Positions 2,257-46,375 of a stretch of DNA of 64,000 nt are shown piece after piece. The notes beneath the pieces are model-generated. The model saw only the letters and a list, made by a program, of their open reading frames with translations. It was not told the origin of the DNA and did not search any database. Every line of letters starts with the position of its first letter. Positions within the stretch are counted from its first letter, which is position 1. The stretch covers positions 54,506,282 to 54,570,281 of the forward strand of contig CM055098.1 in the NCBI GenBank assembly GCA_029204225.1, in the 5' to 3' direction. Origin of the DNA: Diphasiastrum complanatum. Its lineage: Eukaryota; Streptophyta; Lycopodiopsida; Lycopodiales; Lycopodiaceae. Both the position numbers and the translations under genes were made by a program.

Positions 2257-3071
2257 GGACGTGTACTATGGGATAATGAAGTTGTGCATGACGGCTAGGA
2301 TGAACAGAAGACCGATATGTATGGACAAAATGTACGGTATATCGGACCTGTGCGAGGTTATTACAAGAGAGATAGATTAGTATTGAAGAAAGGTGCACAA
2401 GTGCGATACAAGGAGACACGTAGGCAGATGTATCGGACCTGTGGGCATGGAAGGCATTAAGAAAAATATCGATTGTGAAGAATGTGCACAAGTGCGATAT
2501 GGGGCCGACGAAAAAAAGTGAAAAAAATTCATCTAAATTTGTGATTTTATATCGCGGTTCGCAGCTGCAAAAAGACGTCCTTGTCACACGTGTGGGAGTT
2601 GTATTGGTCCAATGCAAAGAGCGACACATGTCACTCTATCACTTTACTCGTGTGAGATTTGTACGAACGAATGCTGCGAGCGACACGTGTTGTCGAACAC
2701 TACGATATGAACATGAGACATGTGTACAGTTATCTTTTCACACGTGTCCAGGTGTCACCTCACACGTGCCAGTTCCTGTAGTCAACTGAAAGTAGACACA
2801 TGACTTTGACCGTTTACCACACGTGCAAAATTTAGTATAAAGGGCACAAAACTCGATTAATTTTTTACTTTTTCCTGTTCTCAAAATTCGCGGCATATAG
2901 GTCTTTGCTGCGCGCACATTGTTGTCTATCTGCTTCCACGCTACCCTAGTTGCGCACAAGTGCGATATTCGGTATCTACCTGCCGTACATATCTCTATCT
3001 GTGCGCAATCTTGATAGTTAGTTTTGTTTCAGTTCTCCCTCGTGCAACAAGTGTGATATCTACATATTTCC
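2257..3071. promoter_or_regulatory. Divergent promoter with iterons and CACGTG boxes
   Basis: This spacer separates the histone-Ulp1 gene (leftward) from gene C (rightward). Four direct near-copies of GTGCACAAGTGCGATAT lie at 2393-2408, 2484-2500, 2952-2968 and 3042-3059. A second repeat, TATCGGACCTGTG, occurs at 2340-2352 and 2431-2443. Between 2580 and 2830 there are also repeated CACGTG-type cores (CACACGTG and close variants). The corresponding spacer of copy 3 carries a different iteron at the same position, so repeat arrays here are a property of the family. Likely roles are transcription-factor or self-encoded protein binding sites. Confidence 0.6.
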
Positions 3072-4655
3072 ATGGCCTCATTCCTCAGGATCCTCACCGA
3101 GATCAGGCTTGAGTTCATTTCTTAGTGAAATTTGGGATTACTGAAAATCTAGACTACTTTCACAGCCTATTCAGGCCATATCTACATGTTTTCAGGAATG
3201 CACAACCAAATTCTAATGTATTTTATGAACATTATGTTAAATTCAGAGATATACTTAGTAAGCCCTGTTTTCTCCATAGGTTCACTCCAGTACATGCATT
3301 ATACTAATCTTGTTCATTTTCTTTCTCAGCTTTCAGACATAGACTACATAGAATGTTCACCAAATGTGTTGATCTTTTCAAAAGCAGTTCAATGTGTCCC
3401 CTTATTGCAACAAGAAATGTGATTGGTAGAATATCAGAATGATTTTGTACTTTTCCTTTTAGTTCAGATTCCAGATGATGAGGAAGTATCTGTTGCTGAC
3501 CATCCTTTTGCATTATCCTCTGTTCAGTCAGCTATTAAGGATATCAATCACTTCCTTATTGACACTCCTGATAAGGAAAGTGACTTTATTGATGTAAATA
3601 CTGATGTTCTCCCGACCGATTCTTTTATCGGCCAAAATACATCTGCTGATGAATACATCCCGATAGAGGAGTCTAAATGTCTTTTTCAATTTGTCTGTAT
3701 ATTATATTAATGACAATGTATAATTTACTACTGCTGATTTATGTAAATTTTTTTGACTATTGTGAAGATGATGGTTCTGATGTTTATTATCTGACACAAT
3801 TTTGAATTCTCCCGACTTTGTAGATTTTGAAACAGATGACCTTGTTGCTGTATTGATTTTGATGATGAGGAGGGGACTTATGATCGGTGAAGAATGTCTG
3901 ACTAAGGCTTTATCAAATATTGCTAAGGATGGACGAGGCAGACCATCCAATGAAGAATTCACGACATTTCAATCCCAGATGGACTTCCCTCATCCATCAT
4001 TAATGCATTTCGCTGATGATTCCACTTCAGTACGTGGTCATTATATTGATCATCTTGATCTGGTTGCTGCTGATGATGAAAAATGTGTAAGTGTTTTAAA
4101 CTTCCTTGCATTACAATGTTTTTAATCACTAAATGTGTTTTTTGCTAACATATTTCCTATTGCAGGATGCTCTCATATTTGATGACTTTGCTGCGAGACG
4201 AGGGTCATTTCAGACAACCACGCATCCTCGTTCCAGAGGAATAGTGGACTTGGCCACTATCTTAGGCTTTTCCTGAAGATATGAGATGCTGTATTGCTCA
4301 TTTCCACAGTTGAGCCTAGTTGGGGAGAATCTGATAATGGCAGTTAAAGCTTTATCATTTTACCTAGGAGGGACATAAATTTGTTAAGACAAATAAGATC
4401 ATTTTTGTCCAAAAGATTTTATGTTTTGAACATTTAGGTTTTACTAATGGAATGTTCCTTTAAGGAACTCTCATTATTCATTGTATTCCACTCATATTGA
4501 GCTTAGTGGAAATAAGAATAATGCACATCTATTAGTTGCATACGTTAGCAGAGAATTTCTTCATGACCAATACTACCATATGAATCTGATACTACGATCT
4601 GATGAATGAATAGTTGACACTTTGTATTTTTGATATAATACAATCAATACATTAC
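3072..4655 (+). pseudogene. Transposon gene C, copy 1 (unknown function)
   Basis: Multi-exon gene inferred by matching copy 3. Proposed exons: 3072-3257, 3330-3418, 3468-3678, 3824-4086, 4166 to about 4276, and a last exon from about 4312 to 4655. Most junctions have GT/AG signals. Exon 1 carries GITENLDYFHSLFRPY, matching DIPSEKLEYFSTIVFAPF in copy 3. Exon 4 carries RPSNEEFTTFQSQ, matching LPTEEEFWEFQKQ. Exon 5 begins DALIFDDFAARRGS, matching DALELGAFCMRHGG. The last exon carries NLIMAVKALSFYLGG, matching TVIMAIKSLSASLGG. The middle is rich in Asp/Glu. I recognise no domain. A frameshift follows MASFLRI in exon 1 and several stops break the last exon. Exon limits are approximate. Confidence 0.55.
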
Positions 4656-4739: not shown

Positions 4740-7173
4740 TAGCTCAGCAATCATCTAGTTTTCTCTTCCGGTATGAACTTGCATGCTTTTCTAAACTGTT
4801 GTATTGTGTAGACTTTGTTAATCTGAACACTCACGGTAGAAGCATTGAAAACAATTGACAATGTAGTTTTCATTTTCCTTGGTTCCTCCATGTTGTGTAT
4901 TTCGATGAAATGTTGCTCATGCTTTGCCAATGTGACTTCTCCCATCCCTTGTGATGACCATATACTCAAGCTTACATAGGTGTTGCAAAAAATGTTGTAT
5001 GATCCTCTTAGTATGTGCTGCATATGTCAAAATCATAATGTTAGTCTTATGTTTTGGATCTAAATATATATGAAAAATTGAAAGCATCTTGAAAATTTTT
5101 ATACTAACCATGTAATGAGTGATGTGATCTTCTCCCCATGCTTTTGGATATTGCATTAACAAACTTGACACAAGTCCTATTGGACAGCTTTCTTATCAAT
5201 ATCAGAGTATTTTTCTTTTTTTAAAATAGCAATCATACTATCAAGCTTCTTCCATATATTCAACTTTTAGTACTCTAGTTTTTACTGTCTTTTTTGAAGT
5301 CCTGAGTGACAACAATAATATCTGTCCAGACTGAGTGTTGAATATTAGAAGCCTTACCAATATGATTTGAAAGGAAACGACGTGCTTTTGCTCCTCCTAT
5401 GCTTGGCTTTAGTTGGCATGTTCCCATTCTTTCCCTGAAAGCTTTTCATCTTTTTGAATTTTGACATGTCCCTTATGGAGTCCTGCTTTTTGATAAAACA
5501 TCTTCTATACGAGAGATAGCTTCCTTTGCTAATGATGCTAGCTTAGTATTCCAAGCAAAAACTATATGAATATAATGAGCTTTTCTTATTAATCTATCTT
5601 TTGCATGAAGAGTGCAAACATGCACATTTTTCCAAGGGGATAGACAGCACAGGCTTCCAATTTGGATTCTGCATATTCTCTACTGATTCCTGTACTCCTA
5701 GTTATATCTTTTGCCATTTTCATGCTAGTACAACAAAGGGTGTTTGATGTAGCACCGTTGAGAGACATTATACATACATTTCAATGTTTTCAAATCACCT
5801 ACCACAGTGCCATTCAACATTGAAGTCTCCAACTCCCTAGGAACATGAGAAGTCCTCCATCCATATGGTTCTTGATGATCCTAGGATAAAGGTGGTCTTT
5901 GAGAATATCCATGATAAATATTCATGATCCTCCTTCAGAACCTGTCCCAAAGAATAATCAGACTTAGTTTACATGATTTAATACTATTCAATGAATGTAA
6001 TGTAATAATGAGGCTAGTATTATCGAATGCCTACCTACCACCATATCATTTTCTAACTGGACACTGAATCTGAATCTCTTCTTGGTTCTCCGTTTGTGAT
6101 AGAGCGCCAATCATGAGAGTTATACTAACTCTCTCCATCTTCTGCCCTTTCACTATTTCTGACTCATCTAACTTAAGTAATAGATTATTTTTTTCATTCA
6201 CCTTTTCATAGGTTATATCATAGAATGTGACGATGTATCTCAGCAAGTAATTTAGATCAACAAATAAGTTGTTTGATGAATTATAGATATCGATCTTTCC
6301 ATCAGTTTCATACACCTCCTCAATATGAAATGGAGTTCCAGTGATCTTATGCATACCTATGTTTAATGTATCTCTCTCTTTCTTCAAGTGATATGTCCTA
6401 GGGATTGGGAGTTTTCTAATTTGAACTTGTTTAAAAGCTTCTCTAATTAGTTTAAATATTGTTGCATATGCTTCCCTACTAATACCTGCAAAATCACAAG
6501 CACCCTGAACTATAGTCTTATCTAAAAAAATTTGAATGTCCACCATCAAAGACTCTGCTATTTTAAACTTTACATTTGAAATCCTATTGTTCATCATGAT
6601 ACACTCAGTGGATTTGCAAGTCAATATTGTGCCCAATGACATTCCTAGTGAAACATTGTCTTTAATATTCCGAGGAGCTACTAATGCAAGATCTGCAAAA
6701 AAAACAGATAGTTAACATAATATCACCATAGCTTAAATTAAATCCAAATGTCATTAAAAAAACATACCAAAAATTAGAAATATGCTTACTTGAATGCACG
6801 GATTCTTCTATTTCGATAAACCTCCTTTTGAAAGCGTTTTGAATATCCTTGCAACTTTGTCGCTTTTGCTTCTTACCTGTAAGCCTTTTTCTTTGCCAAA
6901 TCCACATCTTTCAATAATTGTAAGTTTTCAATATGCCCATTGCATATCCATGTAACTAAATGAGTTATTGAAGAGAATGTGGGATGTGTCAAAGTGTTTG
7001 GATCTTGTAAATATAATATTCCATCTATCCACAAATCCAAGTTTTTTTTTTCCTTCTGCCCTGAAACGAGAACGATCCTCAACAGATATTTGAATTCCTT
7101 TGCCTCCTCTTCTCTGCAAAGGTGCCAAATCAATAGGGATATCCACATGTAGATGATACAATGCCATCATCAA
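4740..7173 (-). pseudogene. DDE-type transposase, copy 1
   Basis: Read leftward. The N-terminal exon starts near 7173 (MMMALYHLHVDIPIDLAPLQ), followed by a stretch shared with copy 2 that here lacks about 240 bp encoding the coiled coil. The next exon (about 6046-6660) holds GISREAYATIFKLIREAF and the first acidic motif LLLKLDESEIVKGQKMERVS near 6130-6190. The second acidic motif, VVGDLKTLKCMYNVS, lies at about 5760-5805. It is followed by VLSIPLE and CTLHAKDRL in a shifted frame, then PSIGGAKARRFLSNHIGKAS (about 5340-5405). The third motif region, LSIWSSQGM, is near 4930-4960 and is frameshifted right after it. The order and spacing indicate a DDE/RNase H-fold transposase. I cannot assign a named superfamily. 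Frameshifts and stops make it nonfunctional. Confidence 0.7.
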
Positions 7174-7661
7174 AAAAACAATAGAGTAATCAGTTGCATC
7201 AAAGTACTATGACTAAATTATATGAAGCAAAACAAAATACTCATCTTTGATTATATTATATACTATGTACGATCAATCCAATCTCCATTCTTGTATGCTT
7301 GATTCAAATTTGGAAATGCCGCTCATTTTTTCATTCCAATAGGTAGTTGGCACTCATATTTCCATTCTCGTGGAAGGAATGCATATGTAAACATTTTGCA
7401 ATTTTTCCTGATTCGGATTTGGGGATGACGGTCATATTCTAGATCCAGTGAAAATATTGCCCTTTTCGTAACCAATGGAGAGAATATTTTTGAATTTAGT
7501 CAAGTTATATTGCGAACTGTTTACAGTTCTTAACTGTGACTATAAACACTATGGTTAGATCATTGGGAGTTGGGAGGCCTTGGGAGTGGTGGGGACAAGC
7601 AAATAAACAATATTATTTTTTTTATTTTGATATTTTTCCTATATCCTACATGGCATTCCTT

Positions 7662-7688
7662 AAAGGGTCTTTTTGATATTGAGAACTC
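7662..7688. repeat. Right TIR of transposon copy 1
   Basis: These 27 bp are identical to the right TIR of copy 2 (14675-14701) and to the reverse complement of its left TIR (9201-9227). The outer end reads GATATTGAGAACTC. The next 8 bp (CTCTAATG) are also shared with copy 2, so the true end may lie slightly further out. Confidence 0.85.
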
Positions 7689-7696
7689 CTCTAATG

Positions 7697-9200: not shown

Positions 9201-9204
<4 letters not shown>

Positions 9205-9227
9205 TCTCAATATCAAAAAGACCCTTT
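9201..9227. repeat. Left TIR of transposon copy 2
   Basis: The sequence begins GAGTTCTCAATATC and is the exact reverse complement of 14675-14701. Similarity weakens after 27 bp. Subterminal sequence nearby (9400-9570) carries short motifs such as CTGCCCGAC and CAGTAACTGTG that recur beside gene A of copy 4 (37430-37490). Confidence 0.9.
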
Positions 9228-9658: not shown

Positions 9659-11032
9659 ATGGCGAGGAGACCCAGATCTACAATCGATTCTGTGATTCTT
9701 TACAATGAGAAAGATGAAGCTGATAACTGGAAGCCAACAAAATATACGAAGAACTCATGGGTATTGCTGCATCCATCATCAAAGGGCAATTTTTGACAAA
9801 AGAAAAGAGCAAAAATGACTTACAAATCTTATTGGAAAGCAAAAATTTTGGAGTTTAAGACTACCCCGAGAGATCAATGGATATCAGAATTCTTAGTGCA
9901 ACATGTATATATGCATTCAGAAATCAAAGTACATGATATCAATTATCATGATCATAAAAAATGTAATTGTAAGTATATCAAAACATATGCACTCTACAAC
10001 AATCATAGGTGATTTCCTTTATTGATGCTCTTCAGATTATGATTTAAATGCTTCAACATTGTTTTTTTCTTTCAGATTCATATCCATCATGCATAAGTGA
10101 ATGGGAGCCCGCACAATCACTTGCAGGAATATTAGATGTGATTCACTCTGATGTTGGAAAGCTACAATACAGAGGAAGAAGTCCAAAGGAACTTGTAGAT
10201 TGTGGTATCTATTTTTATGAATCTTTATATACGCCACAAACAAATGGAGGTTTTGGCAAGCTCGAAGCAATTCCATTGCCTAGTTTTCAAAGTGATGAGT
10301 GGCCTACTCCTGACAGCATTGTTTCTGAATCCTTGAGATGCAAGCTACTCATTGATATTAAAAATGCTATGAAGATAAGCACAGGCTCGAAAATTGTTCA
10401 CCTAAGTTGGTTTATCTCATTTGCATACATTTGTTGATTTTTTCTCGAGTGCTAGTGTTCGTAGGACACCAACTTTATTTGTTTGCAAGGATTTATCAGA
10501 TGAGACTTTGTCAGATCTCATGGATCAAGGCTGGGATAGTAAAACAAATAATGACATAGAATGCAGGATTAAAAAGTCCTCAATGATCTTCCGTTATCAT
10601 ATCGAAAAGCAAATGCTCAGTCTCACATTTAGCTACCAGAGATACAAGAAAATTGAAGGTACATGGCTACCACTGGATCAAGACTTTGAACTAAATGATC
10701 ACACAAACCGAATGGAGATAAGCATTATCTACAATGAGGAATATTTGACTATGGTTGAGGTGGAAGAGCACTGGAAGCTTGATTTTATCAAAACAGAACT
10801 CATGCTATTACAAACCAATCTACCAACATATTTCAGATTTATCATCAACGGAAGACTCGTAAGTACTTTATGTTTATTGCCATTTCAAAATAGAACAAAA
10901 TAATAGAAAATGTCATCATTTACAATTGCACATTCACTAATATTTGCCATGTCACAGATGCGAAAAAGACAGGAGCTGATAATGTGCTACAAAGATCTAC
11001 CTACAACAATCACCATTGTGGGAGAACAATAG
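9659..11032 (+). pseudogene. Transposon gene A, copy 2 (unknown function)
   Basis: Three exons are supported by splice signals and by copy 4: 9659-9968, 10076-10858 and 10958-11032. Joining exons 1 and 2 keeps the frame. The product, about 385 residues, begins MARRPRSTIDSVILYNEKDE. It has a short HDHKKCNCK motif at the end of exon 1, then GILDVIHSDVGKLQYRGRSP, then VDFFSSASVRRTPTLFVCKD and WLPLDQDFELN. All of these have counterparts in copy 4. The protein ends MRKRQELIMCYKDLPTTITI. I recognise no known domain; the Cys/His cluster could bind a metal. Two defects are visible: an in-frame TGA after SSKGNF (9794-9796) and a one-base frameshift near 10425. Both are absent from copy 4, so the ancestor was open. 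Confidence 0.65.
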
Positions 11033-11226: not shown

Positions 11227-12951
11227 TTAATTTAGTACAACTACATCATCCTTTGCACCATCATCAATAATGGGAGGCTGAAGCCTTGCCCTAGCCAGTA
11301 TACTCAGGATAATTTCTTGTCTAAATCTGTACACCTAGCTTGATGTGTACTCAGGAAGTGTAAACTGCAAAATAGAACATTCATGTATTAGTAATGGCCA
11401 ATAACATCACCGGGATAGAAAACTAATCATGATTTCAAAATAAGAATAAACAAAATTTATTACCTTAGAAATATCAACATCTTGTTGAAGGATGAACCAC
11501 TCAAAAAACAACTTGGCATTGTACAATGTGTACCACCCACAGTTGAATGAATCATTTTGCTGGGGTGACTGCAAAATAATTCAGCACACAAGAAATCAAT
11601 TATGAAACAGAATGAATTAGATTGAAAATATTTCATTAGAATACTGATTTCAAAATGCTATTAAGAAAGACAGAATTTACCTCCAAGCTAACGATCTGCC
11701 AGTCCACGGAATGGGGAACATCTGTAGGAATATATTTACTTAGATATGGAATGTATATATCTACATCCTTATGCATATTTCTTGCCAAATTCATCTTGAC
11801 ACAAGAACATTTAATAATATTATTTACAATTTTCTTAATAGAGATCAGGTTTAAACTCCAGTGGCCACTGCAAAATTAGATTGAAAGTACTTTAGCGGCA
11901 ATTCTGAGAACTATTTAAATTGAAAATGTAATGCATAAAACAGAAAAAAGCACTTAATATATCTTACTTGGTATGATAAAGAATGACCAGATGCTTTGTT
12001 GTTGGTGTGAATTCACTTGTCAGACACTGTGACCATGTGTCATTATTCTCCTTGAAGGCCTAGAGCAGAAAGTTACTCAGCACCAACAACTTGTTTGATG
12101 AATCTCTTGCAATGTCAAATTGCAAGAGTGTCAGTCCGGACTCTATCACAGGATCACTGATAGAATCCCGTCTGTCTTTGAGATCCAGGCAATCTAGAAC
12201 TCTAAAATTAATACTAAAATCAAGTTCATCTATTCTAAAAGAAAAAGGAGTACCAATTGTATCTATAGCATCCGATATGTCTTTCTCAAATTTAAGATAA
12301 TCATCCGAATTTATATATGTATAGAAATTGGGAGGAGGAGGAGGAGGAGGAGGTGGATGTGTAGTATCCATAGCAATTATAGGAGTATCCAAAACAGAGG
12401 TAGCTATATTTACAGCATTATCAACAACAACATTATCTACAATGGATTCTGGGATAGGCTTCACAGAATCTGAAGGGTTAGGCTTCACTTTCTTAGGAGC
12501 ACGCTTGGGGCTGTCTGTCCTAGGACGCTTCGTAGGAAGATGAGTCCTATCTACAAGAGTTGGTCTAGGAGCAGCAGGCTGAGATACATGTAACCTACAG
12601 TACCTATCCCTCATTCTCATCAGAAGCTGAAAATCCTTGGGCATTATGGTAACCCTCTTGGTATGGATGGCAAGCAAAAAAGAATCCTCAAAAAAAAGGC
12701 TAATATAATCTTCAGCAGCCTCTTGAAGACACTGAAGAGCACTCGGTGTGAATCTAACGTGTTGTCCGAGATCATTTCTTGTTATGTTCAGGATAGCACG
12801 GTAGAATGAAGCTCTTGGGATCAACAGAGCTGTTGACCTCTGATACTTGCGTATCTCAGAGAGCCACCTGCTGCGGTTGCGCGTTCTAGGTCTAGGATGA
12901 GGATGAGCTAGGAGAGAAGAAGTCTCTCCTTGTCTGCTTTCTCCTATCCAT
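11227..12951 (-). pseudogene. CENH3-like histone fold fused to Ulp1 protease, copy 2
   Basis: Read leftward, the exons are 12951-11968, 11867-11681, 11568-11464 and 11364-11227, all with GT/AG junctions; the exon 1/2 join keeps the frame and yields YHTNGHWSL. The H3 fold (12585-12866) has SEIRKYQRST, LLIPRASF, VRFTPSALQCLQEAAEDY and LLAIHTKRVTIMPKDFQ. A basic KRPR/KRAPKKVK linker and nine prolines follow. The protease part shows SISDPVIESGLTLLQ (compare Ulp1 WLxDxVI), catalytic His in GHWSL, an Asp-containing DVDIYIPYL, and QQNDSFNCGWYT with the Gln and nucleophile Cys of the C48 family. Defects: TAG at 12060-12062 (open in copy 1), a frameshift between the start codon and the fold, and a TAG in the last exon. 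A SUMO/ubiquitin-like protease acting on chromatin is inferred. Confidence 0.88.
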
Positions 12952-13163
12952 GGGCGTGAACTATGTGATACCGGACACCTTTCATAGGTTATATCATAGA
13001 ATGTGACGATGGATCTCAGCAAGTAATTTAGATCAACAAATAAATTGTTTGATGAATTATAGAATATCGATCTTCCATCAGTTTCATACAACTCCTCAAT
13101 ATGAAATGGAGTTCCAGTGATCTTATGCATACCTATGTTTAATGTATCCCTCTCTTTCTTCAA
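12060..13163 (-). other. Chimeric open frame: transposase fragment joined to histone fold
   Basis: The internal deletion of copy 2 placed a transposase fragment directly upstream of the histone gene, and one 367-codon frame runs through both. Residues 1-61 are transposase (HIEELYETDG, NNLFVDLNYLLR); about 62-97 read the histone gene's own start region in a different frame; about 100-192 are the H3 fold; then come the basic linker, polyproline and start of the Ulp1 domain. It is a by-product of the deletion and need not be expressed. It is listed because it is the longest open frame of the element and could be mis-annotated as one gene. Confidence 0.7.
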
Positions 13164-14184
13164 GTGATATGTCCTAGGAATTGGGACTTTTCTAATTTGA
13201 ACTTGCTTAAAAGCTTCTCTAATTAGTTTAAGTATTGTTGCATATGCTTCCCTACTAATACCTGCAAAATCACAAGCACCCTGAACTATAGTCTTATCTA
13301 AAATATTTTAAAGGTCCACCATCAAAGACTCTGCTATTTTACACTTTACATTTGAAATCCTATTGTTCATCATGATACGCTTAGTGGATTTGCAAGTCAA
13401 TATTGTGCCCAATGACATTCCTAGTGAAGCATTGTCTTTAATATTCCGAGGAGCTACTAATGCAGATCTGCAAAAGAAACAGATAGTTAACTAAATATCA
13501 CCATAGCTAAAATTAAATCCAAATGTCATTGAAAAACTTACAAAATTTAGAATATGCTTACTTGAATGCACAGATCCTTCTATTTCGATAAACTCCTTTT
13601 GAAAGCGTTTGAATATCCTTGCAACTTTGTCGCTTTCGCTTCTTACTTTCAGCCTTCTTCTTTACCAAATCTACATCCTTTAATAATTGTAAGTTTTCAA
13701 TACGAATAGACTGTAAGACTGATTGCATTTGCTCTATTTCTGATTTTATATCAATTGCTATCTTCTGTAATAATTCATTATTTTTTTTAAGTTGTTCATT
13801 TTCTTCTAACGTCTTTTGGAGATGACAATCTCTATTCTGACAATAAGAGGATATCCGAATTAACTCACCTTCTAAAAAGTGAACTTTATTCATATAAAGT
13901 TGTTTTCCATGGTTTTGGAATCTTTCACAATATCCTAGTAATCCACTATGCCCATTGCATATCCATGTAACTAAATGAGTTATTGAAGAGAATGTGGGAT
14001 GTGTCAAAGTGCTTGGATCTTGTGGATATAATGTTCCATCTGTCCACAAATCCACGTTTTTCTTTCCTTCTGCCCTGTAACAAGAACAATCTTCAGCGGA
14101 TATTTGAACTCCTTTGCCTCCTCTTCTCTACAAAGGTGCCAAATCAATAGGGATATCCACATGTAGATGATATAATGTCATCAT
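12977..14184 (-). pseudogene. DDE-type transposase N-terminal remnant, copy 2
   Basis: The start is the ATG at 14182-14184, matching copy 1. Exon 1 (to about 13560) encodes DLWTDGTLYPQDPSTLTHPT, then THLVTWICNGHSGLLGYC, then a long coiled coil (repeated Leu/Ile/Glu/Lys from QKTLEENEQLKKN to KDVDLVKKKA) and a basic KKRKRQSCKD that may be a nuclear localisation signal. The following exon (about 13470 to 12977) carries GISREAYATILKLIREAF and HIEELYETDG. Sequence stops at DITYE, where it is joined to the histone gene, before any of the three acidic catalytic motifs. A TAG near the start (after DLAPL) is CAG in copy 1. Without catalytic residues it can only have had a DNA-binding or multimerising role. 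Confidence 0.7.
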
Positions 14185-14674
14185 CAAAAAAATAATAGAG
14201 TAATCAGTTGCATCAAAGTACTATGACCAGATTCTATGAAGCAAAACAAAATACTCATCTTTGATTATATTATATACTATGTACAATCAATCCAATCTCC
14301 ATGCTTGTATGCTTGATTCAAATTTGGAAATGCCGCTCATTTTTTCATTTCAATAGATAGTTGCCGCTCATATTTCCATTCTCGTGGAAGGAATGCATAT
14401 GTAAACATTTTGCATTTTTCCTGATTCAAATTTGGGGATGGCGGTCATATTCTAGATCGAGTGAAAATATTGCCCTTTTCGTAACCAATGGAGGGAATAT
14501 TTTTGAATTTAGTCAAGTTATACTGCAAACTGTTAACAGTTCTTAACTGTGACTATAGACACTGTGGTTAGATCATTGGGAGTTGGGGAGGCCTTGGGAG
14601 TGGTGTGGGCAAGCAAATAAACGATATTGTTTTATTTATTTTGATATTTTTGTATATCCTACATGGCATTCCTT

Positions 14675-14701
14675 AAAGGGTCTTTTTGATATTGAGAACT
14701 C
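14675..14701. repeat. Right TIR of transposon copy 2
   Basis: A perfect 27-bp inverted match to 9201-9227, identical to 7662-7688. It is followed by CTCTAATG, also seen after copy 1. Confidence 0.9.
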
Positions 14702-14789
14702 CTCTAATGTATCATCATATCAGTCGAGCATTGATCCCGTAGCCGGCTACTTGGGTTAGCCGAGTAGCCATATTGGTAGAAAATTAGCC

Positions 14790-15610
14790 TGTATAATGGA
14801 TTTTGGTTTTGTTATGCTATACTTGAGGGCATGTCTCGGGTATGTTAGTTATTTAGACCTTGTTGGTGCAAATTATTGTGTATGGAAGTTTAAAATCAAA
14901 ACGCTTCTAAAAGGTAAAGGGATATGGCTAGTGACCAATCTCACAAAACGAAAGCCTCCAGAGGAAGACTCAAATAGAGAAGAATGGATGAGGAAGGATG
15001 AGCGCGCAATGGATAAGGAAGGATGAGCACGCAATGGCGATCATCGTATCCTCCATATATGAAAAAATCCTCATGCAGATTGAAGATTGCGAAAGTGGCC
15101 ATGAAGCGTTTGAGAAGCTAAAACAGAAGTATGAAGTGAGGACAGCCGTGTTAGTGATGCACCTCCACAATCAACTACAAAGCTTGTGATGGGATGGCAA
15201 CAAGCTATTCAGCATGTTGACAAGATGAAAATGATCTTCGCTTAGCTCTCTACATCTGGTCAGGCGCATCAAGTCCCAGCACCGTAGCAACTGATGTACT
15301 TCATGAAACGTATTTAAGTATACCAACGTGCAGGGTTTTAAAATCAGAAAAAGCAAATGCAACCATGAAGTGTATTGGAAACAATGAAATTTCTATAAAA
15401 ATTGGGGTCTGAAAAAACTCCATCCAATATTGAATGGCCCCGCTCCTACATTGTCGCCTAATATGTTATCCTTATTTTCTAATTTACATGTATCTAATTT
15501 ATTAAGAGGAAGACCTATATTGGTCTTCGTCATCTTAAAACTCTATGTAGGACCTAGAGATTTAAGATGTGTATTTTTCAATTGTTCATACTGTACATAT
15601 TTAGGAGAAG
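14790..15610 (+). mobile_element. Ty1/copia relic (gag and integrase fragments)
   Basis: 14860-15189 encodes a copia-type gag N-terminus (GANYCVWKFKIKTLLKGKGI, then EAFEKLKQKYEVR and MHLHNQLQSL), frameshifted at a small tandem duplication. About 15520-15610 resembles the end of a copia integrase core (LYVGPRDLRCVFFNCSY; compare the family pattern PRxxKCVFLGYS). Reverse transcriptase is absent. The relic lies between transposon copies 2 and 3. Confidence 0.55.
14984..15036 (+). repeat. 26-bp tandem duplication in copia gag relic
   Basis: Two adjacent near-identical units of about 26 bp, each containing AAGGAAGGATGAGC or GAGGAAGGATGAGC. The duplication adds a stop and shifts the gag reading frame. 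Confidence 0.8.
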
Positions 15611-15659
15611 TTACAAATGCAAGTGTAGGGGGTGCAAGAAGTGATATAGATAATTCCTA

Positions 15660-16137
15660 AATGAATTATCATTAAAAAATGAATAGAATTTTGAATTTCT
15701 ACAGCTGGTTTTGAAGGAGAGGATGGAACTGGTCTGAAGTACTCAACAAATTTGCCATATGTGTTCCGTAGCCTGAACACAATGGTGAAATACTTCGACA
15801 TAATAGTCACTCTCTTGGCATGAACTGCTGCAACAATAGAATCTAAAAAGAATTTCACCTGGAAATCCTCATAAGTTATGTGCAGAGCTTCAACTATCAT
15901 GATTTTCCATCTCACATTATGAGAGAGGCTTCTTGTTACCTGTCTGATTGATATCTGGATGTGAGCTTTCAGAATCAAAAGATTATTTGTCTTCTGAAGC
16001 CTCCGGATATCCTTCAGCCATGGCAGATCATGTGGTCTGCCCCTTGGACTAGAAAGTAGTGGTAGATTTCCCTGGCAACCTCCTTGCATTGGGACACTTC
16101 CAGGATCAATCTGTGTTGTTTGCTTCATGAAGGCCAT
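15660..16137 (-). pseudogene. CENH3-like histone fold gene, copy 3
   Basis: The frame opens with MAFMKQTTQ, again like the H3 tail (MA, K4, Q5, T6 kept). Residues about 40-130 are an H3 fold: WLKDIRRLQKT, NNLLILKAHI, VRWKIMIVEAL, FFLDSIVAAVHAKRVTIMSK, FRLRNTYGKF. The VRW at loop 1 matches the Trp of plant CENH3 loop 1 that ordinary H3 lacks. The fold is followed by a short Pro/Ser linker (FRPVPSSPSKP), after which I see no Ulp1 domain; the element is broken there. The fold itself is uninterrupted. The protein is far more diverged from H3 than copies 1 and 2, with changes such as Asp to Tyr in the normally conserved MPKD turn (MSKY). Confidence 0.75.
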
Positions 16138-16897
16138 TCACAGACCCAATATCAAATCAACATGCGTGTAGAAAGGTCCCCAGTTACGAATGTAGTTCAG
16201 GCGCACCGAACCGATATCAGACAGAAAAGTCAAAAAATAGATGATAGCGAATGGACGCGTGGGAGTGTAGAACAAAAATATCACAATCGGGTTGGGTGCG
16301 CTGAACTGATGTCATGCTGGTCAAATGCTGAAAGTAAAAAATTTTACAATCATGTTTGTGTTTATATAGGGCGATAATCCATAATGATTGCCCTCGTGGA
16401 CATTGTAGATATCGAGGTATGGAATACGATGATCATCAAATTCGAAATCTTTTGTAATCTTGAAAATCAAATCATTAATAAATGTTTGTGGGTCAGCACT
16501 CATGATTAATTGAAAAGACTAATTATGGACCAATAATTACATTCCAGGTACATGTACAATGATTAGATGACATTTAAGGCCCCAGATTGCAATTCATGTC
16601 TTGTATGGCTGAGACTGATTGAGATAGGCCATAAATATCAGGAAAATTAATATTGTCATGATTTCAAGATCCTTTTTCCACTACGATATCGAATTGACAT
16701 GTGTCATCAGTATCTGAACTGATCATTCATCTATGGGGTGCACTGAACCGATAGTAGATTTGCAGAACTGTAATATCGGTTTAGCGCACGCCCTTGTTGA
16801 AGCTTTAGAATTGAATATTGAATCAACACGTGCCTTGTTCAAGGGTGGGGCCCCGACCAGAATCATTCACGCACGTTGAACCGATATTAGGTACAAT
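16138..16897. promoter_or_regulatory. Divergent promoter with five iterons, copy 3
   Basis: The spacer between the histone gene (leftward) and gene C (rightward) has near-copies of GTGCRCYGAACCGATAT at 16201-16217, 16296-16312, 16738-16754 and 16871-16887, plus an inverted copy at 16773-16789. A partial copy (TCTGAACTGAT) is at about 16713. One copy sits only about 10 bp before the gene C start codon. The arrangement parallels the different 17-bp array of copy 1. Confidence 0.7.
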
Positions 16898-18548
16898 ATG
16901 GCTAGTTCTTCAAGGTTCTCATACGACAAACTTCTAGATTTTTTGAATGGCAGTGACATTCCATCTGAGAAATTGGAGTATTTTTCCACTATTGTTTTTG
17001 CACCTTTTGATATCGATAAGCTAGTTTATGAGAATCATTATAATTTAATTTCTCTTATTGATAATATTTCTCAAATTATTACTACGGTTGTTAGAGATAT
17101 AGATAGTTTTTGTTTCGTTCATTTTCATGACCTTGTATATTCTCAACCATCCTCTAAGCACAAACGTGATAGAAAGTACACTAACTTGCATGAACATTTT
17201 AAGAGAAATATATATTGCGATATCCACAAGAGAAAATGTCGCCTTCTGATCAAAGGCATGGCATTTGTCTTTTATATATCTATAGAAACTCTAGATGACG
17301 AGTCTGTTGAATCTTCTGTTGTTCCCATAATTGAAGCATCCACATCTTCTCCAGATGATGTAGATGAAGTAGATACTGATATAGGAATTGAAGCCGAAGC
17401 ATCCATGGCTTCAGATTATGAGCAAACTCTCCCTCATTCTATAATCCTCTCTGGCTCGCTTCCAACTGCAACTCCCATTAATCCATTAATTCTACTCGAT
17501 GTTCTCGTATACTTTATAAATAATGATAGTTATAATTCTTTTAACGATATAGAAGATGTTTTGAATATATGAGAGGATGAAATTCTCTCAATGTTTGCAC
17601 AACATTTATCAGCATTTTCTAACATTATTGATTACACTTATAATGATCTTGAAAGTGAGATAGATTATGATAAAGATGACAATTGAAAATCTGGCAAGGA
17701 GGCATTAAAGGCCATAATTGAAAAATCGAAAGCCTATGAAAAAACTTTGCCTACTGAGGAGGAATTTTGGGAATTTCAAAAACAATATCCTCCAAGATTC
17801 AATATATCCCCTCAAGTAGTGTAGAGGCCATTGGAGGACATGACATTAGCAGAAAAGACATCGTTGATACGATGATAATGATCTGGTAAGTAGATAGTAT
17901 ATTGGTATTGATATTGTGTTGTTTTTTTTTTTTTCAAACAAATGTTGAAGTTTGAGGTTATTTTGTTATCTATCATGCTAAATTTATTTTCTTGACTCTT
18001 TTACATGATGCTCTTGAACTAGGTGCCTTTTGTATGAGACATGGAGGCCTTCGAAGTGTATCACATGGGAGAAAGGATATGTCTCTTTCTCATTATCTGA
18101 AAAATTTCAAGAAAATAAGATTTGTATATATCATTGATCTTTTAATCCATATGATGCCACTGTCATTATGGCCATCAAGTCATTATCTGCTAGTTTAGGA
18201 GGCCATACTTACTCCAGAGGAACATATAAAATAGTTTTTGTGAAAAGAGATTTGTCCATTGAAATATTGGGTTATACTCCCAATGATACTACAAAAAGAT
18301 CATCTCCAATGGCCCTTTATTCGGGTTACGTAGATATGACCAAAAGGAAAAATTTAGAATTTTTGGATCCATATGAAAGAAAATTATTCCTTCATGACAA
18401 TACCATCCGTTTGAATCTTGAAGAGGATGATGATGAAAATCAAACAATGTTCTGTGATAGATTATTGATATATTACAAGGATCTCTCTTTTGTTATGAAT
18501 TTGAATGCCTTACAAAAAATCATAACATTTGGCGAATTTTTAGCTTGA
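16898..18548 (+). pseudogene. Transposon gene C, copy 3 (unknown function)
   Basis: Start ATG 16898. The first 224 codons are open (MASSSRFSYDKLLDFLNGSD, DIPSEKLEYF, then an acidic Ser/Asp/Glu-rich region). The same frame then continues past TGA (17570-17572), a second TGA near 17683 and a TAG near 17822, including LPTEEEFWEFQKQ, which matches copy 1. A later exon near 18005-18110 begins DALELGAFCMRHGG and the last part (18140-18548) carries TVIMAIKSLSASLGG, ALYSGYVDM and RKLFLHDNTIRLNLEE, again matching copy 1. I recognise no known domain. The 3' end overlaps the transposase gene on the other strand by about 70 bp. The ATG context is shared with the gene C fragment of copy 4. Confidence 0.6.
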
Positions 18549-19962
18549 TATCTAAATTGTGCTCTTCTATAAACCCACTGAAAAAGTTGAGCTAAATATT
18601 TGTTTTTTGAATTGTGTCCACCATTATTTGTAGCTCTTTGAAATGCTTCTCTTGCTTGCCAATGTGATTTTTCCATGCCTTGTGATGACCAGATACTCAA
18701 GCTCCCATATTCCTTTGCAAAATAAGTTGCATGATGAAGAAACATGTGCTGCAAACAAGAGTTGAAATAAATAACATCAGTAGAAAAAAACATAATCATG
18801 AATGAGATAAGTACCATATAATGAAATAGATTAGTACCATGTAATGTGAACGTGATCTTCTCCCCACCAATCTCGTACAAATTTCACAAATGTTGTGCAA
18901 TGATTTTGCAAAGTCCTCATATCTTCATATGAATATGTGTAAGTTGTTCCACATTTGACTTCCAGTGTTCATGTGGCTTGAACAATTTCTTTTCAAATTC
19001 CGTATCTGACACTAGATTCTTTGAATGTGTGATTGGATAAGAATATTCTTGCTTTAGCACCTCCAATTGATGGCTTATTAGAAAAATTTTCTTTTTTTCC
19101 GAAGAGTTCACTTCTTTCAATGATGACATTTCCTTTAACATTTTTTAATGGAATTGACAACACACTTTTCAAATTTGGATCTTCTGCTTCTCGTGTTCTG
19201 GTCGTCCCAAATTTATATTGTAGCAATCCTTCATGCAATAAAAACATGGATGTTTTGGCGTTTCCCCATGAGAGACATTATACATACATTTCAATGTTTT
19301 CAAATCCCTTGCAAGGTGCCATTGAATTTGAAAACTTCCATGGTTTTCGACTGTAAATTTCTCACCCTCCAAATGTCTCTTTATAATCTCGCCATAATTT
19401 GATCATGAAAATATCCATGAAAGTCAAGTAATGCATGACATGGTAACAAAAAATGGCAATTTATTCAATGTTAATAATGATACTTAAAATAAAAAATTGA
19501 AAAGAAAACTTGGAATGCCGCCAACCACCATATGTGATTTTTTGATTGAACACTAAACGTTCGATCATCTGTATCTAATTTTTTCATCAAAGTGACACTC
19601 ACTTGATCCAACTTTTGACCTTTGATAATTTCAGATTCATCCAATTTTATTACTATAATGATCTTTACATTTACTTGTTGTTCGTCTAGTTTATAGAATC
19701 GAATAATGTATTTTAGAACATTTTCAATATCAAGGAAAATATTATTGCAATCGTTGTAATTGAGCTCACCATATTCTGATTTGTATAATTGAGTTATATG
19801 AAGTAGTTGGCCAACTACTTTGAACATTCCGTCATTATAATAATTTCTTGCTAGTCTTACCCGATATGGATGAGGAAGATAAGTTTTCTTCACCAACAAT
19901 TGAGAAAAGGCTTCTTTAACTATTCTAAAAAAAGTAGAATAAGCACTTCCAATTCCAATCAC
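18480..19962 (-). pseudogene. DDE-type transposase, copy 3
   Basis: Read leftward: 19962-19500 encodes SAYSTFFRIVKEAFSQLLVK, LLHITQLYKSEYGELNYND and the first acidic motif IKLDESEIIKGQKLDQVSVT (about 19600-19650). 19375-19170 holds QWHLARDLKTLKCMYNVSHG with the second Asp, followed by HPCFYCMKD, a CxxC probable zinc-binding element. Next come VLSIPLKNVKG and KPSIGGAKARIFLSNH (about 19020-19200, frameshifted). 18720-18560 holds SLSIWSSQGMEKSHWQAREA with the presumed catalytic Glu, then LAQLFQWVYRR. The set D, D-CxxC, E fits a DDE transposase. At least two frameshifts and some stops are present, and the N-terminal coiled-coil exon is missing. It pairs with copy 1 over its full catalytic length. 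Confidence 0.72.
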
Positions 19963-20006
19963 AAGAAAAAATTAATGATACCTCAAGGGGAGTCCTTGTC
20001 CACAAA

Positions 20007-23719: not shown

Positions 23720-26573
23720 GATTTGGAATAATAGTTGACATGGATATTAAGCCCCCTACTGTCAAGATTATGAATTTTGCCTGAAAATTCCATTCAAGGT
23801 CAATTTTGTAAATATTAATAACCTTTTGAGGATCCAAACACTCCTATAGTGACATGTGAAGCTGCACATGGTATGTGATAATTGCATGCATGTGAAGAGA
23901 CTCTACCTTGGTTATAGAGTGAGAGAAGACTGCATGGGGATTGCACGTCATCATGCATAGATTACCATAGGCTTTATCTTCTGCAAGAAGTGGTTTGGCT
24001 CCACTGTCTCCTTTAAATTGCTATTGTAGGTTTGATCTTTGGGGATCATTGGCAACACACTGACTTATAACTCCTTATTACAGATAGTTGGAATATTAAT
24101 AGCCAATATGCATTGTTAAGGTTTGACTTTGCTTACACGTGAGTAAGTAGCATATTGTCTCTTGAGCCTCTATACATGTGATCTTATAACCCCTCACCAA
24201 AATGAGTGCCATTTGTGCTTACACCCTTTTAGGCAACAAATTGTTGCAATGGCCTCCAGGAAGACACCTTGCGGAGGTCTAATTGTTATTTGGTATTGAG
24301 TCTACGCATGCTTACAATTTTCCAGTAGCGCAACACACTTGGAACTTTTTATGTCCATATCTCTTATCCAAGGGTCCCGATGAAAGGCTAGCATCATCTA
24401 CATACTAGTTGGCTATGATACTAGATGTAACAAAGGCACCTCAAAGGGAGTTGAGGACACCAACATGGCTTCCCATGTTTGACATTCTCCCTTCCAAGCT
24501 ACCCAACATACAAGCATCCAACATGGCTACATAAATTTGCATGATGATTGTCATATAGATTTAACCAACTCAACTATGTGGCGATCGTCGGAAACCAACA
24601 TAGCACCATTGACAAATTGGGTAGCTATAAATAAGTCATTTCCATCTAACTCAATCAATAGGTCATTACTAGAGCATTTTCCTAGTGCTTCAAAAACTCA
24701 CATTCATGCAAGGTACACTTAGAGCCACAAGTAGAAACACATGTATTGACAGCTAGGCCTAGATCATAGGGTCTTGAAGATATATATTAATTCTAAGAAT
24801 CAAATTGTCTTAAAATTATACTGAAAGTGTCAACAAAGATAACCTTCACTCCCGTGATTGGATAAAATATCTAGTGACCTTTCAATTGGCATTTCTATAA
24901 AACACTTAAAACCCAAGAAGTAATCATTTTTTTTGAGAAAATTTCACTTTATTAAGAAGATACATTTCAAGTGTGGGACCGACCCTGCCCTAGCCTTCAA
25001 GGCCATGGGCACATGACTAATGCCAAAACAGCAACATTTAAAGAAGGGGAGTCTTGATTGGAGCTCATCACTAGTCACATCTACATTGCCCTATAGATTT
25101 GATGCCATTATTTGCATCCTCTTAAAACAAGTTGTAACGTCTAATTTTGGTAAGGTTTTTCTCTCTTTAAAATCTATTGTTCACAAGGCTTCCTTTATTC
25201 TTGCCTAGGTAATGCTAGGTGGTGGCACTAAATGGAGCTCTCTAGAACTGCTAGAATGGTTTATGCTAGTGGCACTGAGAACAATGTTGGTGATTTTGGC
25301 ATTGGGAGCGAGGTTGCGGGCTGGCACTGGTGCCAACTTTAAAACACTACATCATCACAGAATCTCGAGCAACTTTCTTAGTTCAAATTTGTAGGCTTTT
25401 GGTGGTAGAAATCCCTCCTACTCAAAGCTTTATAGTTAAAGGCCATGGGAGAGTAAAGGGCTTTACGCCCACCAAGCTCATGACTTGGTGGCATAACATG
25501 CTCGACAACTTTAACAAATTAAATAGTGACATGTTTAAAAAATTTGGAAAAGGTGGTGCTCTCTTGCTCAAACCAACAAAAAGTCGACACACATTTCAAA
25601 TAGAAAATTGAAAATGAATTGCGATACTTACGCTCGATAAGGGCGGCGTCGAGTCGTGCTCTCTGAGCTCTGGGGGGCCCCCCTCATGGCCATAAAGCCG
25701 TAGCAGCGCGCGAGGAACTCGGTCACCCAACACTGGAAAGGAGGTGGCCCATGTGCATAAAGTGTTATTTCCCATTGGAGTGAAATGTGGAAGGGCCAGG
25801 CAGGGGCAGGGGGGATTGGGATGCCAGCAGCTCTCACCTACTAACGGTGACTGGAAAACCGGGTGTGTTGTGCTCAGCCTTGCCACCTGCTGCAGAAACT
25901 TTATAGAAAATAGAAAGGACTTTGGGTCCCCGTCCCCGTCTCCTTGTGGGTCCCCCGGACGGGGACTTAGGCACGTCTCGAGGAAACTCAGCGGTCGCTC
26001 GACACAGGACGTGCCAAAATTCCGTAAAGCTCAAAAGTAGACGATACAGTAACTAAATTTTGTCACTTCCCCATGGCCATTTACAACCCATCAAGCAGTT
26101 TCATTAAATTAGTAAGGAGAGACTTTGAATCTACGACCTCGCTTACTTTCTTCAACGCTTTAATGGCTATGGCTCATACTAGATCATATGCACAGGCAGA
26201 GCATCCTGACTCCTGATCGGTGTGTAAAAGTAACATACAACAACTTAATAATAACTTGATCAGTACTGTAACTGATCCATGTCTCTGGCATCAGCTCTTT
26301 CAATTGTGAATAGAAAGCTACAGATGCTTTCTGTTATCTCGAGGTTAATTCATGAATATGGTGACATAAATTGAAATCTAAGAGCTCAGAATTTGGTTTC
26401 ATGGTGACATGAATCGAAATCTAAGAGGTGAGAAGATCGGTTGAGAGTATGAGATGGTTTTTCTTTGCATCGATGTGGGAAATAGTTGATAGGGGTGTTA
26501 AAGCTGACAGAAACGTTTGAGGGAAGAAAAGGTTGGAAGGTTTGGATAAAGATTATAAGCTTTGTTGGGCGCG
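23720..26573. other. Intergenic DNA with a GC-rich patch
   Basis: No gene recognised. 25640-26000 is much richer in G and C than its surroundings (runs such as GGGGGGCCCCCC near 25670 and GTCCCCGTCCCCGTC near 25930). It may be an LTR or other mobile fragment with different base composition. The final 100-200 bp must include the SMXL promoter and 5' UTR, but I see no decisive element. Confidence 0.4.
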
Positions 26574-29500
26574 ATGCGAGCTTCAGTGGCGATTGCTCAG
26601 CAGACGTTGACAGCAGAGGCAGCAAGTGTGCTGAAGCATGCTGTTTCGGATGCTCAGAGGCGTGGCCATGCTCAGATTACCCCACTGCATGTTGCCTCAT
26701 CTCTTTTGACGATCAGTGGAAGTATGCTACGGCAGGCATGCCTTCAATCTCACCGCCATATGCCGCATCCACTGCAGTGCCGAGCTCTGGAGCTCTGCTT
26801 CAATGTAGCTCTGGAGCGCCTGCCCACGGTGCAAGCGTCACATGTGGCTGCTCCTCAGCCTTCTTTCTCAAACGCTCTCGTTGCCGCGCTAAAACGGGCG
26901 CAGGCACATCAGCGAAGGGGGTGTCCGGAACAGCAGCAGGTGCCTCTTTTAGCAGTGAAGGTGGAAATGGAGCAGCTGATCATATCGATCCTTGATGATC
27001 CAAGTGTAAGTAGAGTGATGCGTGAGGCTGGTTTTTCCAGTACTTACGTGAAGAATAGTCTCGAGGAAGCAATAGGATCGTCCTCCATGCATTCCTCAGC
27101 AAATGTAGATTTGTCACATCTGAAATTCAGCTACGCGGAGCCAATTGGTTTGAAGCTAGGAGGTGTTGGCAGCTTGGCAAAACATGCAGGTGCTTTTCAC
27201 AATTCGGATATAGGAGGATTATCAAGTATAGGGATAAGCCAGGCTAGAGATTGTACTACTTTTCTTCTACCTGTATTTCAAAGTGAGCAGCATAGAAGCT
27301 CCATAGCATCAAACTTGCTTGGAAGAGCTTCAGAGGTTGAGCTTGGAGGTTCCAGAGAACAAGCGGTGAGGGACGTTGTTGAGGTTCTCACGAGACAGCA
27401 TAAGAGAAATCCTCTCATAGTCGGTGAACCAGAGATGGCCACCAATGCAGTTGTTAAAGAGCTGCTTGAGCACTTGGAGAGAGGTGATATTGATGCCAAA
27501 CTCAAGGGAGTCAAGCTTGTCTCTCCGCAGCTCTCTACCAGTTATCAAAGCAAGGAGGAAATGGAACAGGAGTTCCTGCATCTTAGAAGGGTGGTGGACC
27601 AGAACCTATCCTCAGGAGTCATCGTGTTTCTAGGTGACGTGCAGTGGCTTGTGGATCGGATGGCTATGGGAGTTGCCAACAGTTTGGCACAGCAGGCAGC
27701 TGACGAACTGGAACGGCTTCTATTGCACTACGGAGGCCGTGGACGCTTGTGGTTCATGGGCACGGCAACAAGCCAGACCTATTTGCGTTGTCAAGGACGG
27801 AATCCTTCACTGGAAATTGAGTGGGGATTTCAGCCTGTGCGGATCTCTCTTGGATCCAACGTAAGAATGCTTCCAAGGTTGGATTTCGTCCTGTTTCTCA
27901 ATTTCTGAAGTCAACTTCTTCTGCACCTGCCACCCACATTCACCTATTCGAGCGTTGGTAAAATTATAATCAAAAGACATTTAACCTTTCGTCCTAGAGA
28001 TAACATCCAGAGCTGATTTCTTGATTTGCAAATACTCCATTCTCCGTTGCAGCTTGTACCTTCCATTGTAACTCTTTCGGTATTTTCTCTGACGGACAGC
28101 TAATTCCTAGTGATCATTTCTCTCCGTTCCTGTTTGATCTGATATCGAAAATTTCGCCTGCAACCACAAATTACTTCTTGTGAATTTTGAGTTCAGGTTG
28201 TTTATCGTCCATCAAGTTAGGCATCGTAATAACTGCTGATAAAGGTTATTTGCTTCATATATGAAAGAGTGAAACAGTAGCTAGCCGCATGCCTTCGTGA
28301 AAGTTTTATAGTCACTATCCGTTGTTGCTCCTCATCAATCTGAAGGTAGCGTCATGCACGTGCTGCACGTGTATGATACAAGGCGATAATGCCATTTTTT
28401 CGATTTTGTCAGTGATAAACTGTAAACTGTGTGCGATCAATGGTAGATTCCAGGAAACATTATACGTAACTAGAAACAAAAATTTCAGAAAAATCAAGCG
28501 AAGTAGCAAAATGGAGTGACAGATTTTAAGGAAAATAAATTCTAAGCTTGTGTTGTTCGACTGCTGCAGATTCGAGCATCCAGCTGATAAGGCTGAAGCA
28601 TCTGAAGTTTCCTTGCGTGGTGGTTGGTCCCAAGCAAAATCGCCCATCAATTTACTTAGATTGTTGGACGACTGTCCAGATGATTTGAGGTGCTGCCCTG
28701 AGTGCATATCCAATTTTGAAAACGAGTGCACTTTGTTGCAAGAACAAGAGCTAACATCCAACCCGGAATCTGTCCATTCCTCCTCTTCACCAGTGGATAT
28801 ATTCGGCGAAAAGCCTTTGTATGCTGAGCCTGCAATTCTATCAACTTGGCTGCAGTCGAAGTTTGATATTCACCATCCAAAGGAGGCAATGTCCGATAAG
28901 GTGACTCTTGGGATCTTATTTTAGAGTCTAGACTTTTTTTAGATTGCTTTCGGAAATAGATTCTGCCATACTGATCATATGTCTCCCCTTGAAACTCAAC
29001 AACTCGCCATTTTGCAGCAACAATCCCAGAAAATTTTGCATTGTTCTTTCTAGAGCCATCAAACTTTTTATTCTTGTGCCTCCTCATGAAACTAACGAAC
29101 GAAGTGTTATATTCAAAAACAGTTGGATAGACAGTCGTCTTCATTGGCACAGAAGTTGAGGAACTTGAGGGGTAAGTGGAACAGTATATGCCATACCCAG
29201 CATAAGGAGTTCCACAATTCTATGCAAGCAACTCCAATCCTACTTCATGAATCGGCTTCTTCATCAAGCAAAAATCCTGGCGGGAAATTTTTCGATGAGA
29301 GATTGCATCCGGAGAGCCCGAGATGTACTTCTCTAGATGTGTCTGGAGCTAGTTCGGAATTGGGAAGAGGATGCCATAAGCTTTCCATAGCCACAAAGCC
29401 GACATGGCTCTCTTTGCAACCCCAGCCCACATCCGAAGTTCTTATTGGCAGTGCAGGTGAACTGAACATAAGTGAGATGGGCCGTGCTGGATCTCTTGCA

Positions 29501-40922: not shown

Positions 40923-40934
40923 TGGTATCATAGC
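40923..40934 (+). promoter_or_regulatory. Primer binding site of nested copia
   Basis: TGGTATCATAGC, one mismatch from the initiator-tRNA-Met complement TGGTATCAGAGC. Confidence 0.85.
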
Positions 40935-45565: not shown

Positions 45566-45570
45566 ATTAT

Positions 45571-46363: not shown

Positions 46364-46375
46364 TGGTATCAGAGC

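Follow-up and report, generated by a model that had tools for sequence, protein, structure and literature searches.

Can a DNA transposon carry a histone and a protease-like domain in a single gene, and what would such a protein do for the element that encodes it? The question is raised by a stretch of 64,000 nucleotides from the lycophyte Diphasiastrum complanatum (contig CM055098.1, positions 54,506,282–54,570,281; hereafter the window), which holds, on the minus strand at 12951–11227, a gene joining a histone H3 fold to an Ulp1-type (C48 peptidase) domain, referred to as H3-Ulp. An earlier note, made from the sequence, had described one spliced gene with GT/AG introns, and its coordinates match our gene model to the base: four exons with GT/AG joins that keep the frame. 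Exon 1 (11968–12951) comprises the ATG, a K4-type tail, the H3 fold (~12866–12585), a basic/proline linker and the N-terminal half of the Ulp domain; exon 2 (11681–11867) encodes the region of the catalytic His, with the motif GHWSL, which is NDHWSL in most of the copies fetched from elsewhere in the genome; exon 3 (11464–11568) contains SPQQNDSFNCGWY, with the active-site Gln and Cys; and exon 4 with the stop codon spans 11227–11364, its 3' end being set by comparison with an open copy, L033. The histone is recognized by Pfam (PF00125, E 1.9e-25, in the open frame 13307–12060) and by phmmer against PDB H3 (1.4e-20), and the spliced Ulp half matches Peptidase_C48 (PF02902; E 2.2e-6, 28.1 bits, against a curated cut-off of 20.7 bits).

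This copy of the gene (copy B) is broken: a 26-bp deletion frameshifts the N-terminal tail, and two in-frame TAG codons interrupt the Ulp part, one in exon 1, which also carries the tail deletion, and one in exon 4. The 415-amino-acid frame 13307–12060 was considered as a natural three-part protein and rejected, its upstream part being transposase Z (see below) joined by a deletion, the scar of which lies at ~12970–12980, where a fragment of the transposase gene abuts the 5' flank of the histone. This junction occurs in three of the first 30 loci, all three being copies of a single repeated block of contig C7; at locus L008 a transposase fragment is joined too, but at another place. Since two stretches of 12976–14709 match 6199–7696 at 94% identity, and 11971–12970 matches copy A (1252–2275) at 82%, copy B has lost about 4 kb between the two blocks.

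The fusion recurs throughout the same 1.745-Gb genome that holds the window. Of 6454 loose candidates for the histone query, the top 150 were scored (all E 3.1e-46 or less), so that the main-family histone is present at no fewer than 150 loci at 87–100% identity. Twenty loci of ~10 kb each, two of them C7 repeats, were fetched, and a completely open spliced frame of 470 amino acids was found in four of these 20, a proportion not to be read as a genome-wide rate, the loci having been chosen partly by an open exon 1. One open 470-residue protein matches both Histone (1e-27) and Peptidase_C48 (1.1e-10, 42.2 bits), and a C48 match at E 0.01 or less was obtained in four of the five copies scanned. 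Of the 120 splice sites in the 20 copies, 114 retain GT/AG; if the three near-identical C7 copies are counted as one, the tally is 102 of 108. Exons 2–4 are absent from L036. When Ulp exon 2 alone was searched independently (best 150 of 3847 candidates scored), at least 49 of the best 150 hits were preceded, 0.82–1.0 kb upstream on the same strand, by a hit from the separate histone search; among the matches listed, no pair within 5 kb was arranged otherwise. The possibility that the Ulp exons form a separate gene was rejected on these grounds: same strand as the histone, narrow range of spacing and preserved splice sites. Both outcomes that the earlier note had named as fatal to its proposal thus failed to appear: the histone is not a one-off host insertion, as it recurs genome-wide, and the Ulp exons belong, to judge from the open joint frames and the linked hits elsewhere, to the same gene. 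Altogether, the linked arrangement, as read from genomic sequence, confirms that the H3-Ulp fusion is real, far beyond chance. No fused relative was found in protein databases, where the best 120 of 211 hits all covered at most 26% of the query; a further search gave 93 hits, with cover of at most 63% and none over 57% identity. A virus or provirus origin was also rejected, no confirmed relative of Z or H3-Ulp being found in IMG/VR by pattern-based scans of limited reach.

The element that carries the fusion is a multi-gene DNA transposon with terminal inverted repeats (TIRs), in which genes X (+), H3-Ulp (−), Y (+) and Z (−) lie inside 35-bp ends, an order followed in six complete copies. Nine complete main-family copies with both ends measure 7.8–9.7 kb; all nine display CATTAGAG at the left end, and CTCTAATG stands at the right end, with one changed base in two of them. 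The claim that the fusion is part of a transposon therefore holds in that the gene sits inside a TIR element with perfect 27-bp inverted ends, but copy B itself is not intact. Its left TIR (9201–9227, +) is a perfect inverted repeat of 14675–14701, the outermost 8 bp of the 35-bp form found in other copies being replaced here by a CT microsatellite, and its right TIR (14675–14709, −) reads inward CATTAGAGGAGTTCTC. Between them lie gene X (9659–11030, +), which is frame-shifted, H3-Ulp, and a 5' fragment of gene Z (12976–14220, −), 94% identical to the matching parts of 6199–7696 and cut at ~12976 by the internal deletion.

Besides copy B, the window has two further histone copies, at 2256–1252 and 16137–15748. 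The first belongs to copy A, which consists of the broken 5' part of H3-Ulp (1252–2256, −; 82% identical to 11971–12970; PF00125 1.2e-24), a broken gene Y (3073–4606, +) head to head with it, for which related loci have longer open frames, a broken gene Z (4751–7206, −), a transposase identified by sequence matches within the window and to relatives, and a right TIR (7662–7696, −) found by inverted-repeat comparison. The second, copy C, defines another family: its H3 (15748–16137, −), with a tail beginning MAFMKQT, is 37% identical to that of copy B (PF00125 4.5e-11) and is followed by an out-of-frame remnant of the Ulp N-terminal half (15400–15660, −); copy C also has gene Y (16899–18550, +; sequence match) and the transposase gene Z (18476–19971, −), which includes an exon with GSLSIWSSQGMEKSH. 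Neither X nor Y matches a Pfam family above cut-off.

Several further features of these genes may be noted. A head-to-head arrangement of H3-Ulp and gene Y is common to both families (window 2262–3073 and 16137–16899), and the copy A promoter contains ACAAGTGCGATA four times (one mismatch allowed), against 0.18 occurrences expected over the window as a whole. At 37195–36035 (−) lies a diverged gene X copy, 42–54% identical to X at 9659–11030, and inside it is a 56-bp match (82%) to the start of gene Y. The block with copies B and C has three near-identical occurrences on C7, at 53.54, 53.72 and 54.52 Mb, probably by local segmental duplication.

The copy C histone query also returned at least 150 loci, at 70% identity or more, three of which are the copy C block itself. 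The one second-family locus fetched, L051, encodes H3, a lysine/proline-rich linker and then an Ulp half, which is related to that of the first family at E 3e-10 (24% identity over 172 residues). Its intron has the same place and phase as in the first family, before NDHW, with SQQIDSVSCGW further on; no C48 match was obtained with Pfam, either for the first half extended into exon 2 by part of that exon or for a composite including SQQIDSVSCGW. The fusion, as far as can be told from L051 and the copy C remnant, which resembles L051 in a comparison made by eye, is older than the split of the two element families.

Is the H3-Ulp protein of use to the element? Between subfamilies, the ratio of nonsynonymous to synonymous substitution rates (dN/dS) of the H3 fold is 0.07–0.12 at dS 0.56–0.77, with Fisher p values of 4e-9 to 6e-11 in four overlapping comparisons; for instance, copy A differs from L033 by 15.8 changes per 208 nonsynonymous sites and 24.2 per 56 synonymous sites (p 4e-9), and L049 versus L033 gives p 6e-11. 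Within family 2 the ratio is 0.20. For the Ulp domain, dN/dS between subfamilies is 0.24–0.41; three of the four Fisher tests on the N-terminal half gave p values from 4e-4 to 2e-6 and the remaining one 0.076, and the one comparison possible for the C-terminal half gave 2.6e-5. Pooled over the main family (17 of 22 rows; A, L036, L031, L032 and B left out), the ratio is 0.29 for H3, 0.32 and 0.43 for Ulp and 1.24 for the linker. In conclusion, purifying selection acts on both the H3 and the Ulp part.

This result bears on the possibility that host genes for a histone and for an Ulp protein were taken up and copied along (transduplication) as passive cargo, with no function for the element. Capture of host genes is common in plant and fungal transposons, 16 of the 20 fetched loci have no fully open frame, and four close pairs show little constraint, with H3-fold dN/dS of 0.18, 0.42, 0.64 and 1.53; however, high ratios in close pairs are expected, because dead copies drift, and the strong purifying selection between subfamilies and the fact that two deep families share both the fusion and its intron argue against mere cargo, which we regard as very unlikely.

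The histone tail and the Ulp active site deserve attention, as they depart from their canonical counterparts. Family-1 tails begin MDRRKQTRRD..., and family-2 tails MAFMKQTTQI... or (T)AWTKQTACGH..., the start codon of the latter being lost. Among the 22 rows of family 1 counted, of which three are near-identical C7 copies with the tail deletion, the K4-type lysine is present in 21 and the K9 place is never Lys (22/22); over residues 1–38, the K4-type lysine is the only one in 19 copies, one more is found in two, and none in one. No ARKS motif was seen in the tails of either family, and a canonical H3 tail with K9, K27 and K36 is not matched, though the H3 fold is present (PF00125 1e-27). The positions that we take, from H3 structures, to serve H3 self-association and DNA contact are largely kept.

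In the family-1 Ulp active site, the His is kept in 19 of 21 copies, the Gln in 20 of 20 and the Cys in 16 of 21. By contrast, the place of the catalytic Asp, as set by alignment with yeast Ulp1, is occupied by Lys in 20 of 21 copies; an alignment with SENP2, shifted by a gap, puts no Asp at the catalytic place either, and L051 has, by our own count, Asn there. The canonical Asp thus appears to be absent in both families and the protease may be dead, so that the description of the domain as an Ulp1-type protease stands as to the profile match above cut-off, but its activity is doubtful. It follows that the Ulp half might be a non-catalytic SUMO-binding module, tethered to chromatin, that recruits or shields SUMOylated chromatin proteins. 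The loss of the Asp favors this interpretation, whereas the retention of His, Gln and Cys and the selection on the domain speak for catalysis, as does the fact that Cys-His-Asn sites can be active, e.g. in papain; we consider a pseudo-protease of this kind a serious possibility, if somewhat short of probable.

The histone had been described as CENH3-like, on the basis of its LLIP and KDF motifs. The motifs are there, and a CENH3-type Trp is found in family 2, but a CENH3 ancestry is not established: with provisional reference sequences, the transposon histones are 51% identical to plant H3.1 and 46–49% to plant CENH3, and in a tree built with the same references they group together (85/84) and join plant CENH3 at 65/46, joining H3 instead not being rejected by the approximately unbiased test (p-AU 0.163). 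No host CENH3 gene was found with a CENH3 query, the 13 best hits of which are H3-like at 58% and the later ones mostly transposon copies, called so by place and identity. A true CENH3 would allow the element to sit in, or to seed, centromeric chromatin. The motifs, the Trp and the grouping in the best tree are in its favor, as is a within-chromosome spread of copies slightly narrower than uniform (0.212 versus 0.215–0.286); against it, identity to CENH3 is no higher than to H3, the alternative grouping stands, and the copies are dispersed over relative positions along the chromosomes (Kolmogorov–Smirnov p 0.20 for the 87 of the 150 listed copies whose contigs have a known length, obvious pairs being counted as one). 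A centromeric role is distinctly improbable on this evidence.

The RAG1/Transib fold is found in relatives of transposase Z, and in 38 relatives the key residues are nearly invariant: D362 in 32/32, D459 in 37/37, C479 in 35/37, C482 in 36/37, H526 in 37/37 and H531 in 38/38. A DDE core with C(2)C and H(3–4)H, as in the CMCT clade (EnSpm/CACTA, Mirage, Chapaev, Transib and kin), is thus found in the Z relatives; the last E of the core is putative, being placed from a window exon and by analogy with RAG1. For Z before about residue 232, a region barely probed, VIA-align listed no fold. The termini are of the 5'-CA..TG-3' type (CATTAG on the left and TG on the right in 9/9 complete copies, two with one changed base further in). 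A target-site duplication of 2–5 bp was not found, 2-bp matches at the CATTAG end being present in two of nine copies and none longer by eye. Transib elements have characteristic ends and a 5-bp duplication, neither of which is seen here. In the fern Adiantum nelumboides, one protein (P0169) has a DUF7794 domain fused to a segment resembling Z (58% identity, 23% query cover), so the transposase family also occurs in ferns.

Alternatively, H3-Ulp could serve the transposition machinery or steer integration, nucleosomes marked by it being read by the RAG1-like transposase or by X or Y. The fold of the Z relatives, a tail retaining hardly anything besides the K4 site, and the head-to-head placement of gene Y in both families agree with such a cofactor, and RAG itself works with an H3K4me3 reader, in RAG2. 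However, no PHD-like or other reader was detected in X or Y among Pfam families above cut-off, and the family-1 tail begins MDRR and not AR, which makes this role rather unlikely. The cofactor and the pseudo-protease tether are nevertheless the main rivals of the interpretation that we prefer, passive cargo being unlikely.

We tentatively favor, at a little less than an even chance, a role of H3-Ulp as a local anti-silencing chromatin protein of the transposon. The protein would pair with host H4 and enter nucleosomes, bringing a short tail in which the K4 site is kept, K9 is missing and, because of its shortness, no K27 or K36 site remains; with no K9 in the tail, nucleosomes containing H3-Ulp could not take H3K9 methylation. 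Such methylation feeds CHG DNA methylation and transposon silencing in plants. At the same site, the tethered Ulp domain would strip SUMO from silencing factors or bind the SUMO that they carry. The chromatin of the element would be kept open locally, a purpose comparable to that of VANC in the Arabidopsis VANDAL elements. Escape from silencing, which the earlier note had proposed, is something that we infer, and it is better supported now, by selection and by the K9-less tail. Among the premature stops of copies L031–L050 (A, L036, L041 and L046 left out), 15 of 25 are CAG-to-TAG changes, or 11 of 21 once two near-identical copies are set aside; this suggests C-to-T decay at methylated CHG sites, which would lend weak support to the anti-silencing interpretation. 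A fuller version, in which the transposon builds its own chromatin from a nucleosome part with K4 and without K9, K27 or K36 and a SUMO-protease-like arm, so that the K9 methylation/CHG loop cannot lock its DNA, and in which that chromatin may also be marked for RAG1-like transposition, is more doubtful; such marking may be a distant parallel to the use of H3K4 methylation by RAG.

Several observations, in addition to the partly selected loci, the little-constrained close pairs and the missing Asp, weigh against a selected anti-silencing protein. All three H3-Ulp copies of the window are broken. Introns are no more diverged overall than exons (0.063 and 0.062, respectively), and the N-terminal tail taken alone is weakly selected (Fisher p 0.023 in one of four comparisons, 0.12–0.31 in the other three). 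The subfamily comparisons share copies, the per-domain rates thus resting on few independent ones, and L049 looks mosaic, its dS versus L033 being 0.56 in H3 and 0.09 in the N-terminal half of Ulp. Five other premature stops are a single GAG-to-TAG site, at residue 97, common to five copies, which no C-to-T change explains. Finally, the MDRR... start presumably keeps its initiator Met, by the usual rule, and this would spoil the reading of K4, in family 1, by readers requiring A1.

Elsewhere in the window, a host gene of SMAX1-LIKE type lies at 26559–31213 (+; NBD_SMAX1 3.3e-26, AAA_2 2e-15), and a Copia-type retrotransposon at 40140–46375 (+) is flanked by 0.8-kb repeats that are 97% identical, so its insertion is probably young.

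How does H3-Ulp compare with known systems? The known means by which transposons counter silencing are DNA-binding factors (VANC), demethylation-type enzymes (TET/JBP) and methyltransferases (SET), so that there is precedent for element-encoded anti-silencing proteins, to which H3-Ulp might be likened. If our interpretation is true, the new weapon would be the altered nucleosome itself, acting through a selected histone–Ulp fusion in two families of at least 150 loci each. Two questions become directly testable. One is whether, in plants, a histone with no methylatable K9 suffices to interrupt the H3K9me2–CHG loop; the other is whether transposons counter silencing in part by having SUMO removed or bound at chromatin. 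In open-access full text, we found no paper describing an H3 and Ulp1 fusion in a transposon. The closest likeness for the histone is a hAT transposon of Pyrenophora tritici-repentis, which also carries a histone H3 gene, H3L, inside a DNA transposon (26 H3L genes, neither H3 nor CenH3; Manning et al. 2013, PMC3538342); it differs in that H3 stands alone, the consulted part of that paper mentioning no protease, and in its hAT transposase, its fungal host and its nearly identical copies. For the Ulp domain, the counterpart is Kaonashi (KIU), Vandal Mutator-like elements (MULEs) carrying Ulp1, the role of which is unknown there according to the portion of a review consulted (PMC13317346). Like the present element, Kaonashi and the VANC-bearing elements are plant DNA transposons with an accessory gene, here one with an Ulp1 domain, and the family is known for anti-silencing (PMC13317346, PMC5735166); unlike it, they are Mutator-type and non-TIR, and have Ulp1 joined to VANC and not to H3, the sections consulted mentioning no histone (PMC13317346, PMC5735166). 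A Z relative has the RAG1/Transib fold, and no MULE family appeared in our Pfam scans. Transposons with TET/JBP or SET genes likewise encode proteins acting on epigenetic marks, but, in the excerpt consulted, these are enzymes working on DNA or histones and supply no histone (PMC12730594). With the SENP/Ulp1 SUMO proteases, H3-Ulp shares a C48 domain extending across both halves and, in most copies, the His, Gln and Cys, whereas here the canonical Asp is replaced and the domain is fused to H3. Compared with the RAG1/Transib and CMCT transposases, lastly, Z shows about 12% identity, and its element lacks any detected 2–5 bp target duplication; placed beside H3-Ulp, this RAG1/Transib-like transposase brings that fold into a land-plant element.
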